DNA from: Lishizhenia tianjinensis
GTDB taxonomy: Bacteria; Bacteroidota; Bacteroidia; Flavobacteriales_D; Crocinitomicaceae
Reading direction: 5' to 3'
Assembly: GCF_900116425.1 (NCBI RefSeq)
Contig: NZ_FPAS01000001.1
Span: 434,001-498,000, forward strand
DNA length: 64,000 nt
Part shown: piece after piece, positions 936-38,497 of the stretch
Position numbering within the stretch: position 1 is the first letter of the stretch
Layout of the letters: every line of letters begins with the position of its first letter
Program-made: the position numbers and the translations under genes
Notes under the pieces: generated by a model
Databases searched by the model: none
Told to the model about the DNA's origin: nothing
The model's input: the letters and a program-made list of their open reading frames with translations, nothing else

Positions 936-1709
936 ATGGAATTTATTGATCAAATGCATAGAACAATCCGCCTGGGCCAAGTGCCTGAGCGGATTGTTTC
1001 GTTAGTGCCCTCACAAACCGAATTGCTCTACGATTTAGGCCTAGGAGATAGAGTTGTGGGGATTACCAAATTCTGCATACATCCAGAGGAGTGGTTCAGA
1101 AATAAAACCCGCATTGGTGGTACTAAAAATGTAAACCTAGAAAAGGTAAAAGCCCTTCAACCTGATTTGATTATCGGGAATAAGGAGGAGAATGAAAAGT
1201 CAGATATTCTTTCGCTCGAAGAAATAGCTCCAGTTTGGATGTCGGATATCTTTAATTTGGAAGATAGTCTTTCCATGATTAATTCCTTCGGGGAAATGCT
1301 TGATGTGAAGCAGAAAGCGGAAGGATTATGTCAAGACATTACCAAAGAGTTTCAAAAGTTAAAACCGCTTCATCTCAACAAAAAGGTGTTGTATCTGATT
1401 TGGAAAGATCCTTATATGGGGGTTGGTCCCAATACCTTTGTCCATCATATTTTGGAAGACCATCTAGGTGCTATAAATATTTTGGAAGAGGAGAGGTATC
1501 CTGTTTTGGAACTTGCTAATTTAATGCCTCAACCAGAAATGATATTGTTGAGTTCAGAACCCTTTCCTTTTAAAGAAAAACACAGCTTAGAGCTTCAAAT
1601 GCTTTTTCCGAAGGCGGAAATATTGTTGGTAGATGGAGAGTATTTTTCTTGGTATGGTTCTCGACTCTTAGGAGCTCCTCAATACTTTCAGCAACTTTTT
1701 AGTGAATAA
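936..1709 (+). CDS. BtuF-like helical-backbone metal receptor, no signal peptide
   Basis: 257 residues related to BtuF/FhuD-type ABC substrate-binding proteins (two Rossmann-like lobes joined by a helix). Family features are PERIVSLVPSQTELLYDLG near the N-terminus, VVGITKFCIHP, and KVKALQPDLIIG. Classical members are periplasmic and bind corrinoid or iron chelates. This one has neither a signal peptide nor a lipobox, so it is predicted to be cytosolic. No permease or ATPase gene is nearby. The start codon follows the preceding stop by 1 nt, and the 3' end overlaps the convergent next gene by 11 bp. The ligand is unknown. Confidence 0.8.
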   Translation: MEFIDQMHRTIRLGQVPERIVSLVPSQTELLYDLGLGDRVVGITKFCIHPEEWFRNKTRIGGTKNVNLEKVKALQPDLIIGNKEENEKSDILSLEEIAPVWMSDIFNLEDSLSMINSFGEMLDVKQKAEGLCQDITKEFQKLKPLHLNKKVLYLIWKDPYMGVGPNTFVHHILEDHLGAINILEEERYPVLELANLMPQPEMILLSSEPFPFKEKHSLELQMLFPKAEILLVDGEYFSWYGSRLLGAPQYFQQLFSE

Positions 1710-3036
1710 AAGAGAGTAGGTACTTTACCAGTTGTACACTCGCTTCTTGTTGGTTTTTAAATCGAAGTTCTCCTTCAATTCTCAACTGATTATTTTCTAC
1801 CTCATGGGCACAGATTTCGAAATGCTCTACATTGTCCAGGAGAGTGCGAGAGTTTTTATACAAAGGGAAGTTGTTGAGTATGCCCAACATAAAGGGATCT
1901 GTATCCACCGTCAATAAATCTTTAATATCTCCTTTTAACTCAAACTCCTTGGGTTTAGGAGTGCTAATAATTTCAGGGTTTTCATCCATCCCTATATAGA
2001 GTTCGTTGGCACTTAAATGCAGTACATAAAAGTATTCGCCGAGAACTTTTAGAGGAGGAAATTCCATTTTACCAAATTCATCTACAGTTATTCCTTTTGT
2101 TTGAAAATCTTCTACGCGCAAACTATCCTCAAAACGGAATACACCGTTGTATTCTGGTAATAACTTTAACTGCGTGTGATCCGTTTTTAGTTTTACTCCC
2201 TTGTAGTGAAATTGGGTAGAAACGATGTTGGTAGAAGGTATCCCAAGCATTTTTAAGCTGCTGGTAAAGTAGTAATTCAAGGTGTCTGGAAGTTCTCCAG
2301 TAACCGTATTTACCAAGCTTGTATCTTCCTTGATATAATGGAATTTTTGACCTTGCTTTACTTTCACAGGATTCTTTGTACCTATCCCTCGTAGTTCAAT
2401 TTTGTTAGCGATAAGGTTAACCGCAGAAATACTTTCTTGAACATTACTTTCCAAATCTCCAGAAATATATACCTGTATTTGATCTTCCTTATTTTTTGCT
2501 TGAACAAATTTACTGCGAGCGGGAGATTTTATGAGGTCTTGTACCAGTAAATTATCTATGTGTTGTCTAATTTCTTGTGTAAATTCTACATCATTGGTGT
2601 CAGAAATCACCAAGCAGGCTAAGTCGTTATGAAAGCTTATGTAGTAGGGGAAGTCTTTAATTTCGGCTATTTCTGAAGGTGGTGTTTGTGGCTTAAATAA
2701 AATGGCAGTTATAAACTTGTCGTTCCATTTTTCCTGAAATAGTAAAAGTTCATTTTTTGGGAAAAGATGTTTCATCACATCGTTGAAATCACCTTTTTCT
2801 GATTTGTCTAGTTTAATAAGGTCCTTGCGTCTTAGTTTTTGCTTGAAAATAATGTCGCTGATTACAGGACCTAATAACTTTTTATTGTTGACTTTTAATG
2901 CGAAGTAAGTGTCTTGAGGTAAATGATTCTCCAATTTTTCTGGAGTATAGGCCTTGATTTCTTTGAAAACATAAAGTGAGATCCATGAAAAGGAAATCAG
3001 GCTCAGTACAACAAGTAAGTTTTTGATCTTCTGCAT
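1699..3036 (-). CDS. Hypothetical protein with one N-terminal membrane anchor
   Basis: 445 residues with no recognised family. A hydrophobic segment at residues 6-24 (LLVVLSLISFSWISLYVF) is an uncleaved anchor or signal peptide. The remainder is soluble, rich in beta-strand-like stretches and charged residues, so it probably faces the periplasm. It is transcribed convergently with the upstream BtuF-like gene and overlaps its 3' end by 11 bp. It is divergent from the acyltransferase gene, with 141 bp between the two starts. No catalytic motif was recognised. Confidence 0.7.
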   Translation of the reverse strand: MQKIKNLLVVLSLISFSWISLYVFKEIKAYTPEKLENHLPQDTYFALKVNNKKLLGPVISDIIFKQKLRRKDLIKLDKSEKGDFNDVMKHLFPKNELLLFQEKWNDKFITAILFKPQTPPSEIAEIKDFPYYISFHNDLACLVISDTNDVEFTQEIRQHIDNLLVQDLIKSPARSKFVQAKNKEDQIQVYISGDLESNVQESISAVNLIANKIELRGIGTKNPVKVKQGQKFHYIKEDTSLVNTVTGELPDTLNYYFTSSLKMLGIPSTNIVSTQFHYKGVKLKTDHTQLKLLPEYNGVFRFEDSLRVEDFQTKGITVDEFGKMEFPPLKVLGEYFYVLHLSANELYIGMDENPEIISTPKPKEFELKGDIKDLLTVDTDPFMLGILNNFPLYKNSRTLLDNVEHFEICAHEVENNQLRIEGELRFKNQQEASVQLVKYLLSFIH

Positions 3037-33352: not shown

Positions 33353-34831
33353 TTAATTCAATTTGTTCAAAAATGTTTGTGCCGCCTCTAAATGTGCGGC
33401 TTTTTGCTCATTACTTTGTTTCCTATAATTAGCTAAAATGAAACCGGTTCTGTGATTTTTCGCAAAGAAATCCTCGTGTTGGGCGATAAAGTTCCAAAAA
33501 AGTCCGTCCCATGTTTGTTGCCAATCACCTTTGGAATAATTACTCATTTTTAAGATGTAATTGGAAGAGGATAAGTAAGGTTTGGTAGCAAAAAGTCCAC
33601 CGTCTGCAAACTGACTCATACCGTAAACATTCGGTACCATCACCCAATCGTAAGCATCTATAAATAACTCCATAAACCAACGGTACACTTCATCGGGGTC
33701 GAATTGACAAAGCAGCATGAAGTTTCCTAAAACCATGAGTCGCTCTATGTGGTGACAATACCCTGTTTTCAATACCTTCTTGATGGTCTCATCTATGGGA
33801 GGAATGCCTGTTTCCCCCGTGTAAAAGGAGGGAGGTATAGGTCGGGTAAACTTCCAAAAGTTTTGGGTTCTTGAAGAAACACCATGACTCACATACAAAC
33901 CTCTTATAAACTCGCGCCAGCTAATAATTTGACGAACAAATCCTTCCAAAGAATTAATAGGAACTTGATTCTTTTTGGCAAAGTCTATACTGGTGTTGAT
34001 TACATCCATAGGGAGAAGAAGTCCTACATTTAGCAAGGGAGAAAGTAAACTATGGTTGAGCACACTTTCTTCTCTAACGATGGCATCTTCATACACACCG
34101 AATTCGTGGAAACGATAATCTAAGAATTGTTGGAACCACGCTTCAGCCTCTTGAAAATTTAAAGGATAATGACTGTTGGGTTGAAGTTCTCCTGGATTCT
34201 CGGAAAAATAGTTATCTACATAAATGATCGCTTCTTCCCAAGCCTTATCAGCACTTGGAAAACTTGTTGGAGGTGGGGTTTTACCTTTGGGATATTTCTT
34301 TCGGTTATCGGCATCAAAACTCCATTGTCCACCTTCAGGCTCTCCCTTTTCATCTAAAAGTAATTGGAAGCGTTGTCTTTGCTTCTTGTAAAAGGTAGTT
34401 TGAAAAAAGGATTTGCGCGAGCTTTTGAATTCTTTTCCTATATCAGCTCTACTCAATACGAAAGAAGGGGTGTCATAGACTTCAAATTTTACTTTACCCT
34501 TAAATGCAAACAAGCGTTTTTCCAACCAATTATCCACTAGGTGTAAAAGATGTATGGTGTCAATTTCTCCGAGGTTCAAGAGAATATCCAATTCACGTAT
34601 ATCTGAACCTTTATCCTGACTAGAAATGTAGTGTACGTTCAATCCTTTGGCTTCCAGGTAGCTTTTGTACGCCTGCATAGATGCGCGATGAAAAGCTATC
34701 TTTTGTTTGTGGAATTTGTACAATTTGAAAAAAAGAAACTCTTCTATGATATAAACGTCTACACCCAGGTCCAATAGTTTACTCTCTTTGAACAATTGAT
34801 GCGGAAATACAAGGGCTATGGATGTTTTCAT
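33353..34831 (-). CDS. FeS-BCP-type prokaryotic (6-4) photolyase/cryptochrome lacking most cluster cysteines
   Basis: 492 residues of the photolyase-related family to which bacterial (6-4) photolyases such as PhrB belong. The N-terminal Rossmann domain is followed by the FAD-binding helical domain. Typical blocks are FVRQIISWREFIRGLY, HHIERLMVLGNFMLL and NVYGMSQFADGGLFATKPY. In FeS members four cysteines bind a [4Fe-4S] cluster. Here one candidate remains (Cys359 in GYCHHIERLM), and the region that normally carries three (429-448, MSNYSKGDWQ...) has none. Repair of (6-4) photoproducts is expected from the family. It is convergent with the DinD-like gene, 4 nt between stops. Confidence 0.85.
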   Translation of the reverse strand: MKTSIALVFPHQLFKESKLLDLGVDVYIIEEFLFFKLYKFHKQKIAFHRASMQAYKSYLEAKGLNVHYISSQDKGSDIRELDILLNLGEIDTIHLLHLVDNWLEKRLFAFKGKVKFEVYDTPSFVLSRADIGKEFKSSRKSFFQTTFYKKQRQRFQLLLDEKGEPEGGQWSFDADNRKKYPKGKTPPPTSFPSADKAWEEAIIYVDNYFSENPGELQPNSHYPLNFQEAEAWFQQFLDYRFHEFGVYEDAIVREESVLNHSLLSPLLNVGLLLPMDVINTSIDFAKKNQVPINSLEGFVRQIISWREFIRGLYVSHGVSSRTQNFWKFTRPIPPSFYTGETGIPPIDETIKKVLKTGYCHHIERLMVLGNFMLLCQFDPDEVYRWFMELFIDAYDWVMVPNVYGMSQFADGGLFATKPYLSSSNYILKMSNYSKGDWQQTWDGLFWNFIAQHEDFFAKNHRTGFILANYRKQSNEQKAAHLEAAQTFLNKLN

Positions 34832-34972: not shown

Positions 34973-35608
34973 CTAAAAATCTTCTTTCTTTGGAATTTCA
35001 TGCGTTCGGACGTAAGGGTAAGTTTCTAATTTTTCCAGTTTGTAGTAGGTGTTTAAACCGCCTATACCCACGGTTTTGTTGTGCGCTAAATCAATTTGTC
35101 CTAATTCATTTACAGCCTCTTCGGGAAGATCTATGTGTACAATTTCACCGATAATAAAAGAGCAGTCGTTCGGCAAAGGAATACTGTGTAGGTGCTTCAT
35201 ACCCAGTTTAACCGGACTTTCTTTCACAAAAGGTGCTGGGAAGTTCTTTAAGTAAACAGGAGCAATGTTCATGCGTTCAAACTCGGAAACACCACGTTCC
35301 AGTTTAGCCGAAGTGTAATGCGCATTTTTGTGCAAATGTTCGGGAATGTGATTGATGGTATAAACACCCGTTTCCAGAATATTGGCGTAGGTGTCACGCG
35401 GTTCATCTCCTTGTGGACGAAGTACAAAGCCCAATTGTGCTGGGTTGGACCCTAAGTGAACCACAGAGCTGAAAATTGCTACGTTTTCTTTCCCATCCTT
35501 TGATTTTGTAGCAATCAAATTTGCAGGTTTTATCCCTGAAATGGAGTTGATAAGATTGAGTCTGTATTTGCGGTCTAGTTGTGTTAATTCGTACTGTGTA
35601 AATTCCAT
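34973..35608 (-). CDS. Flavin reductase family protein (split-barrel flavoprotein)
   Basis: 211 residues. FMN-binding split-barrel fold of the DIM6/NTAB flavin reductase family. N-terminal SISGIKPANLIATKSKDGKE and the SSVVHLGSNPAQLGFVLRP flavin-binding region are visible. Probably reduces flavin with NAD(P)H. It sits between the (6-4)-photolyase-like gene and the DUF2256 gene and starts 4 nt after the stop of the latter, so it may supply reduced flavin to the repair proteins; this is an inference. ATG 35608 is chosen because the upstream extension overlaps DUF2256. Confidence 0.85.
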   Translation of the reverse strand: MEFTQYELTQLDRKYRLNLINSISGIKPANLIATKSKDGKENVAIFSSVVHLGSNPAQLGFVLRPQGDEPRDTYANILETGVYTINHIPEHLHKNAHYTSAKLERGVSEFERMNIAPVYLKNFPAPFVKESPVKLGMKHLHSIPLPNDCSFIIGEIVHIDLPEEAVNELGQIDLAHNKTVGIGGLNTYYKLEKLETYPYVRTHEIPKKEDF

Positions 35609-35612
35609 GTAT

Positions 35613-35741
35613 TTATTTGTTTCTTCTACAGCGTTCACTGCAATATTTTACTTCGTCCCAATTTTTCTCCCATTTCTTACGCCAGGAAAAGGGACGCTTA
35701 CATACAGGACAAATTTTAGTAGGTAAATGTTCTTTTTTCAT
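35613..35741 (-). CDS. DUF2256 small zinc-ribbon-like protein
   Basis: 42 residues, too short for most ORF callers. Two cysteine pairs ([10 protein letters not shown] and YCSERCRR) separated by [12 protein letters not shown] form the DUF2256 pattern, probably a zinc ribbon. DUF2256 genes are typically found beside cryptochrome/photolyase genes. Here it lies 4 nt upstream of the flavin reductase ATG and between two photolyase genes. Molecular role unknown. Confidence 0.85.
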
Positions 35742-35898: not shown

Positions 35899-37347
35899 TC
35901 ACGACTGCCTCACATGAGTTGCTACAATGCGTCTGGCCTCAGCTTTAACCTTTGGGTGTTTTCTATGTCCCCAAATCTTTTCTCTTGCTTTACGTGCTGT
36001 TTCCTCCAAATCCATGTTTAACACGGGGTAGGTAAAGGGTTCTTTAAAATCGGCCAACTCGAAAAGTGTCATTTTCCAAGGTTCGTGGATAAATGCAACA
36101 GGTACTTCTTTTAATTCCGGAACCCATTTTTTGATGAATTCTCCTTGAGGGTCATGGTCTTTGGATTGTTTAACTGGGTTGTAGAGTCGGACAGTATTTA
36201 CACCCGTTGTACCTGCCTGCATTTGTATTTGCGGATAATGAATACCGGGTTCATAATCCAAGAACAATTGAGCAAGATGATAAGCACCTTTTTTCCACGA
36301 AACATCAAAGTGAAGACAAAGTATAGAAACCAACATGGCGCGCATTCTAAAGTTGATCCAGCCCGTTTGGGTTAAACAGCGCATACAGGCATCTACAATA
36401 GGAATTCCCGTTCTTCCTTCTTTCCATTTTTGAAGAAGTACTTCGTTGTTACTGTATACCAATTCTTCATAGCCTTTATTGATACACAGCGTTTCATAAC
36501 TGCATTCTACTTCAAATTTTTGAATGAAATGACAGTGCCAATGCAAACGGGTAATCATGCCGTTAAAAGGACGCTTGTATCTCTCATAATTGGGGTGTGT
36601 CTTTATAAATTGGTAGGCTTGACGTATACTGATGTTTCCCCAAGCCAAATAAGGTGAAATACGCGCACATGAATGTCGACTTTCTGCCGGTTTTGATATG
36701 TACTTGTTATAGTTTTTTCCTCTATCCGCGCAAAAGGAAATCAAGTATTTCCAAGCATAGTGTTCTCCAGGTTTTTGATAGGATTCAGGGTAGATTTTTA
36801 AGTCTTGTTCAAATTCTTTCGGTAAAGCAAAGGGATGATCCAATTTCGGAAGTTGAGAAGGGGTGAAGCCATTTTTTAACATAGGGGCATGCATAACACG
36901 GTACCAGGCTTTGTCCCATTTTTCTCTATTCTTTATACCACGCAAAATGCCATCACGTTGAAATTCTATCCATGTAATATTTTGTGTTGCAAACCATTTC
37001 GTACAAGCCTTGTCTCGCTCCCACGTCAATTGAATTCCACTTTCTTGGTAAGAAAAAACTTTATTAATGTTATACTTTTGATTGATGTGATTAAATGCTT
37101 CTAAAGCAGAAGAGTAGGTAGTGGTTATTTCTCTATTTACTTCGTGAAGTTTTCCCTTCATTTCTTCCAAAGAATGATAGATAAACTGGAGGTGACGCAA
37201 AGAGGTATCTGTGTGCGCGATGAGCTTGGGTTCAAAACAATAGAGGATGATGTAGTCCAACTCTTCTTGTTCTGCATGGAAGAAAGGTGCGTGATCGTTA
37301 AGACGTAAATCTCTCTTCAACCAAACTACATTTACCGATTTATTCAT
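35899..37347 (-). CDS. Cryptochrome/photolyase family protein
   Basis: 482 residues, standard order: Rossmann antenna domain ([18 protein letters not shown]) then FAD-binding domain. The FAD region has [44 protein letters not shown] and the [19 protein letters not shown] segment. The last of these resembles animal-type cryptochrome/(6-4) photolyase relatives more than class I CPD photolyase, but the lesion repaired cannot be inferred safely. Its ATG lies 8 nt inside the 3' end of the permuted paralogue upstream, so the two are co-translated. Confidence 0.9.
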
Positions 37348-38434
37348 AGCTCAATTCCTTTTTGGCCTTGTTCCAAAATTTGAAAAAGGAAGGAAAGTCA
37401 CCCTTGATGCTAGTCATCCAATCTCTTTCTAGTCGGTTCCCTTTAAAATGTTGGTGTGTTGGATGCTCTTTAAAGATGATGTTTTCCTCTCCCAATAGTT
37501 CTAAAAGCTCATCAAATGCACCGACAAATATTTTAATGCCATCCATATTTTTAGCCAATTTTAGGGTGAAATCTATACAATGCTGAGTTACCGGATAACG
37601 TTTGAAATGTTCGGGTTCTAATAAAAGTATGTTTTGAATTTGCTTAGTTTTATTCTTTTGGTAATCAATGTTGTAGTAAGTGTGAATTAAACTTAGGGTA
37701 GAAGGAGTGATATCGTCTGTTTCAAGGTGACTCAAGTCCGTTTTAAGTTCAAATTCAGACCTTTCCGCCAAGACATCTGGAAGTTCCATGTTAGGTAAGG
37801 CATCATAACTGGTATCTAAAAAAGTACCACTTTGATCTGTACCGAAGAACTTGTTGATGTTCTCTTGGTTGGCGTAGTATTTTTTGTTGGAATTTGTACC
37901 TGCTACCCATTGCCAACTTAAGTAGTTACTAGCCAAATCTCCATCTAAAAGTTGACTATACATCCAATCTGCTCCAACTTTCCAATGCGTTTGGGCAATG
38001 TTACAAACAATGGAAGCCACGTACATGCGCATGTGGTTGTGCATATAGCCTGTTTCTTTTATCGTAATCAAAGCCTCATCTATAGCCTTTATGCCTGTTT
38101 TCGCCTCCAAGATAGCCCTTGGCATAGCATGACTCATTACAGGACTCTGTTTGTGCTTTAAATCCTTGAAGATTGCATTCCCTTTTACCAACCACAGCAA
38201 TTGCCAATAGTCTCTCCAAGCAAGTTCTTGTAAGAATTTCTCTGCGGCATGAAAACTCGCTCCAGATGCTTTAATGTTGTCGTAAACGAATTTTGTTGAA
38301 ATAATCCCTCTAGATATGTAGGGACTCAGGTTACTAACCGCTCCATTTTTGAAATTCCTTGTTCGGCCGTAAGCTTCTACATCTATTTGTTCTATGCGTT
38401 CTAGTATTTCAGAATAAGAAGTAGGAAAATTCAT
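37340..38434 (-). CDS. Photolyase-related FAD-binding protein with a C-terminal Rossmann-like domain (permuted domain order)
   Basis: 364 residues from the ATG at 38434 (the earlier TTG is unlikely). Residues 1-240 match the FAD-binding helical domain of photolyases: [57 protein letters not shown] and [13 protein letters not shown]. The usual N-terminal Rossmann domain is missing. Instead residues 261-364 ([48 protein letters not shown]) look like a Rossmann-type domain moved to the C-terminus. Comparable flavobacterial proteins exist, from memory, but their function is not known to me. It is the first gene of the cryptochrome pair. Confidence 0.85.
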
Positions 38435-38497
38435 ATTGCTTTGCTTTAAAGGCAAAACAAATGGAAGAAAGAAAGGTTCGATGGTTGAGAAGTGGTT

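Follow-up and report, generated by a model that had tools for sequence, protein, structure and literature searches.

The window analysed here, a stretch of 64,000 nucleotides from Lishizhenia tianjinensis, carries a gene for an inverted-topology photolyase, with the catalytic FAD domain ahead of the alpha/beta domain. The protein is a member of the known NewPHL/SPL kind, within a distinct Bacteroidota-type clade, and we consider it likely that it performs light-driven repair of cyclobutane pyrimidine dimers (CPDs) and belongs to a probable photorepair cluster. The swapped order itself is already published. Inverted-topology photolyases have been in print since 2020: NewPHL (Emmerich 2020) was followed by SPL (Xu 2021), and Phr7 and Phr4/5/6 of cyanobacteria have been published as such as well. 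PMC13274461 presents NewPHL topology as a catalytic N-terminal FAD domain followed by a small C-terminal domain. The gene and its two domains are located as follows:

37340–38434, minus strand: inverted-topology photolyase gene (open frame, FAD_binding_7 match, 55 full-length relatives, confident model)
37760–38434, minus strand: N-terminal catalytic FAD-binding helical domain, residues 8–232 in the 371-residue numbering (Pfam, VIA-align, residue map)
37340–37726, minus strand: predicted C-terminal shortened photolyase-type alpha/beta domain, residues 244–371 in the same numbering (VIA-align, profile link)

The coordinates in the original prediction are correct, and the strand, which it did not give, is minus. 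The frame of 364 amino acids runs from an ATG at 38434 to a stop at 37340, and the plus-strand reading of the same interval contains many stops. An alternative TTG start at 38455 would add 7 residues, giving 371 amino acids, and residue numbers in this longer scheme equal those used originally plus 7. The ATG is favoured because the starts of aligned relatives fall near the motif M.FPT. Full-length alignment is obtained with 55 relatives at 49–56% identity, and invariant columns are present in both halves of the protein. Because these relatives keep the arrangement over their full length, this is a normal conserved gene. The same grounds rule out a frameshift, fusion by chance, and an artefact of assembly or annotation.

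Catalytic domain and active site

The FAD-binding helical domain lies first, as originally proposed. Pfam recovers FAD_binding_7 at residues 74–215 (E 3.8e-25; 371 numbering) and no other family above its cut-off in the whole protein, and matches in a PDB sequence search are restricted to the FAD domain. The AlphaFold2 model of the whole protein, built with 56 sequences, has a pLDDT of 93.3 and a pTM of 0.91. In this model, residues 1 to about 235 superpose on the C-terminal FAD-binding part of solved photolyases (VIA-align Z about 13–17), and Foldseek matches of this part to photolyases reach E-values down to 1e-7. The claim of a domain order opposite to that of standard photolyases is thus supported by Pfam, the AlphaFold model and VIA-align.

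Functions of the active-site residues in E. coli PhrB are well established. In the alignment, its CPD pocket (E274, W277, M345 and W384) corresponds to E77, W80, M144 and W183 of the window protein, the asparagine next to flavin N5 (N378) to N177, and the electron-transfer tryptophans W382 and W359 to W181 and W158. The third tryptophan, W306 of PhrB, aligns to a gap, which in the sequence alignment leaves a tryptophan dyad. Across 56 relatives, all of the corresponding residues show little or no variation. At sites aligned to the Fe-S proteins of loci L087, L160, L173 and L174, described below, the window protein has none of the cluster cysteines. A tryptophan dyad has also been described for the NewPHL of Dinoroseobacter shibae (PMC8948257), and the flavin asparagine is conserved in NewPHL according to PMC12083526. 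Four Fe-S cluster cysteines are reported for some SPLs and not for all.

The C-terminal domain and its counterparts

The second half of the proposed architecture, a Rossmann-like domain placed last, likewise stands: the two motifs originally quoted for it lie in the last 110 residues, and the model of this part falls on photolyase N-terminal domains. It occupies the position of the "Z-domain" of Phr7/NewPHL. The last 128 residues, modelled alone, form an alpha/beta structure with five short strands (pLDDT 88.5), in which no helix is predicted between strands 1 and 2 or between strands 4 and 5. Ranks 1–10 of the VIA-align comparison are all N-terminal (antenna) domains of photolyases or cryptochromes, with Z scores of 5.7–6.9, values that are modest by VIA-align's own yardstick. 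These ten rows align 117–120 of the 128 residues, the helix after the sheet among them, and on the target side they span from chain residues 2–6 to about 164–173, with a few extending beyond. The list also contains unrelated alpha/beta proteins, such as universal stress proteins, HAD phosphatases and glycosyltransferases, and these align over 84–100 residues. It is on this near-complete coverage, and on recurrence across independent members of one family, that the assignment to the photolyase domain is based. Pfam and NCBIfam place the C-terminal part in no family. With the same model, no Foldseek match falls below E 0.001 and none of the matches listed is a photolyase, a result that excludes nothing.

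A further link is provided by SPL genes with Fe-S cysteines. In all six loci of this kind examined here the FAD domain has no alpha/beta domain ahead of it, and an alpha/beta domain follows directly behind. In L087 (Deinococcus QL22 plasmid), L119 and L160 this second domain has a reading frame of its own, which overlaps or adjoins the first; in L173, L174 and L175 (Deinococcus plasmids) it is fused to the FAD domain. The SPL genes with the alpha/beta domain behind them lie at:

L087, 2839–4130
L160, 947–2181
L119, about 960–2300, minus strand
L173, 1104–2474
L174, 1116–2534
L175, 1104–2477

Hosts of these loci are Deinococcus plasmids, Pseudomonadota and one Bacteroidota genome, and their arrangement is that of cyanobacterial phr4/phr5 and phr6. 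A search of 148 other Bacteroidota genomes did not find the split-off partner domain seen in L160.

Profile comparison indicates that the SPL partner domain is clearly a classical photolyase domain (P 4e-11, a score reached by 0 of 120 column shuffles), and Pfam DNA_photolyase matches it at E 2e-4 to 0.02, under the curated cut-off. The C-terminal domain of the window clade in turn aligns collinearly with the SPL partner domain over 103 columns, as far as the FF.FWK motif (P 6e-4, reached by 0 of 120 shuffles). Compared directly with the classical N-terminal domain, it gives a weak match (P 0.02, reached by 1 of 120 shuffles), and the comparison between Bacteroidota and alphaproteobacterial C-terminal domains is not significant (P 0.29). 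The profile evidence thus connects the C-terminal domain to the classical N-terminal domain by way of the SPL partner domain.

Could the C-terminal domain instead be an unrelated Rossmann-type domain gained by fusion? Such an origin would accord with the missing Pfam and significant Foldseek matches, the modest Z scores and the weak direct profile match. We nevertheless regard it as improbable, given that photolyases and cryptochromes take all ten leading VIA-align ranks with clearly longer alignments than other proteins, that the match to the SPL partner domain is collinear up to FF.FWK and unequalled in shuffles, and that the Z-domain of Prochlorococcus Phr7 has been described as an atypical short photolyase domain. 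Structure, together with the SPL partner domain as an intermediate, supports homology, and the C-terminal domain is best read as related to the alpha/beta domain at the N-terminus of classical photolyases, but shortened. As modelled, it appears too short for a normal antenna-chromophore domain; binding of an antenna chromophore is doubtful because of the two missing helices. The suggestion of a permuted antenna-domain enzyme thus survives as regards a swapped domain of antenna type, which is shortened and probably not a working antenna.

Neighbouring genes and proposed function

Three genes follow the inverted photolyase gene in the direction of transcription, all on the same strand:

35899–37347, minus strand: cryptochrome/photolyase-like gene of standard order, 482 amino acids (PF00875 then PF03441; 8-nt overlap)
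34973–35638, minus strand: flavin-reductase-like gene (PF01613, E 3.4e-18)
33353–34831, minus strand: prokaryotic (6-4)-type photolyase homologue with DPRP and FAD domains (PF04244, E 2.5e-54; PF03441)

The cryptochrome-like gene was originally placed upstream; it is in fact downstream, in the standard order already ascribed to it. Its ATG lies within the end of the inverted photolyase gene, the two sharing ATGAATAA (8 nt). This overlap fits the proposed co-translation, in the sense of translational coupling between the two genes, without proving it. Among 68 loci of relatives with at least 3.6 kb of downstream sequence, the cryptochrome-like gene is directly behind in 13, a flavin-reductase-like gene is found downstream in 19 and a (6-4)-type photolyase homologue in 40. 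In the window all three follow on one strand. These observations support a photorepair cluster, and the inverted photolyase is probably expressed together with its three neighbours for the repair of UV damage. Matches to a guessed regulatory palindrome were fewer than expected by chance.

Some features of the neighbours deserve mention in their own right. Inside a photolyase cluster, the flavin-reductase-like protein could supply or reduce flavin. Of the four Fe-S cysteines usual in such proteins, the (6-4)-type homologue lacks two. The C..C motif expected in the stretch after KMS occurs in none of 45 related proteins. The homologue is reminiscent of PromaPL, a prokaryotic (6-4) photolyase without an Fe-S cluster. 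The cryptochrome-like neighbour falls into a separate clade (100/100) whose branch is very long, and it scores far under the curated cut-off of every photolyase model in NCBIfam; it may represent an undescribed class. An alphaproteobacterial relative of it adjoins a NewPHL-like gene in locus L113.

On the strength of its conserved residues and its relatives, the inverted photolyase most likely functions in light-dependent CPD repair. FAD would be held in the N-terminal domain and reduced to FADH- through the two-tryptophan chain of W181 and W158. On absorbing blue or near-UV light, FADH- would pass an electron to a dimer flipped into the pocket of E77, W80, M144 and W183, and the dimer would split. 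The substrate would probably be a CPD in single-stranded DNA, a specificity taken by analogy from the characterised NewPHLs alone. The C-terminal domain probably packs on the FAD site and closes it; in NewPHL, according to Emmerich, this domain reportedly seals the site.

The original prediction also raised a separate light-sensing family, and a cryptochrome-like sensor, which instead of repairing DNA would act with the overlapping cryptochrome-like protein as its partner or input, has to be weighed against repair. Overlap of the two genes and their direct adjacency in 13 loci agree with a sensor, and loss of the third tryptophan could alter redox behaviour. We judge this unlikely, and less likely than DNA repair, because the CPD-pocket residues are all kept and are invariant among relatives; moreover, most relatives have no adjacent cryptochrome-like gene, and related NewPHLs are reported as repair enzymes. 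Activity on (6-4) products is suggested by the related reversed-domain Phr4/5/6, for which it has been predicted (PMC9426592), but the Fe-S cysteines underlying that prediction are absent here, the Glu/Trp/Met/Trp pocket is of CPD type, and the cluster already holds a (6-4)-type homologue. We therefore consider a (6-4) photolyase very improbable, and CPD repair remains our preferred reading.

Distribution, ancestry and relation to known photolyases

The window clade is patchily widespread in Bacteroidota: of 59 genomes from the same family and order, about 17 carry a full-length copy, and across the phylum 17 of 296 genomes do. Genes of Bacteroidota type were also seen on metagenome contigs that bear the labels Gammaproteobacteria, Akkermansiaceae and Verrucomicrobia (L059, L063, L067 and L006), which may reflect horizontal transfer or mis-binned contigs. 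Among viral contigs, no relative came up with the alphaproteobacterial query; the alignment of Bacteroidota proteins gave one partial match of 42 residues (38%) at a contig end (L177:3001–3126), too short to judge.

In a tree built from 66 FAD domains, the window clade (100/99), the alphaproteobacterial NewPHL-like clade (100/100) and the Fe-S SPLs (98/95) are each recovered, and they split from class I, DASH and cryptochrome-like proteins at 100/99. The three join at 93/82, slightly below the strong threshold and with long branches. In the comparisons made here, the alphaproteobacterial relatives are stand-ins for the biochemically studied NewPHL sequences of Dinoroseobacter shibae and Methylobacterium mesophilicum (Emmerich et al. 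2020).

A published proposal derives all photolyases and cryptochromes from short photolyases that lack an alpha/beta domain, and the window clade and the split or fused SPL genes bear on this proposal. NewPHL and SPL may instead descend from a two-domain enzyme whose alpha/beta domain persisted downstream of the FAD domain, initially encoded by the following gene, later fused and finally shortened, with the Bacteroidota clade the most reduced. We put this forward tentatively, at somewhat less than an even chance, because only six SPL loci underlie it and the question is an unrooted one. If true, it would weaken the idea that short photolyases never had an alpha/beta domain. The window clade shows how far the second domain can shrink with the repair pocket intact.

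The closest resemblance is to NewPHL and Phr7, which share with the window protein the FAD domain placed first, a short alpha/beta-type domain placed last, the tryptophan dyad, the flavin asparagine and the absence of Fe-S cysteines. The window protein differs from NewPHL in belonging to its own clade (100/99), apart from the alphaproteobacterial stand-ins, than which it is about 25–45 residues shorter overall, with a C-terminal domain of about 125 residues compared with about 160. Fe-S SPLs (Xu et al. 2021) and the picocyanobacterial Phr4/Phr5 and Phr6 also have an N-terminal FAD domain and an alpha/beta domain behind it, there as the next gene or fused, and SPLs group with the window clade at the 93/82 node; unlike the window protein, these proteins have four Fe-S cysteines, and their alpha/beta domain is fuller. 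Classical photolyases and cryptochromes (class I/III, DASH) share the fold of the FAD domain and the pocket residues, whereas their domain order is opposite, their antenna domain full and their electron-transfer chain a tryptophan triad, and they lie on the far side of the 100/99 branch.
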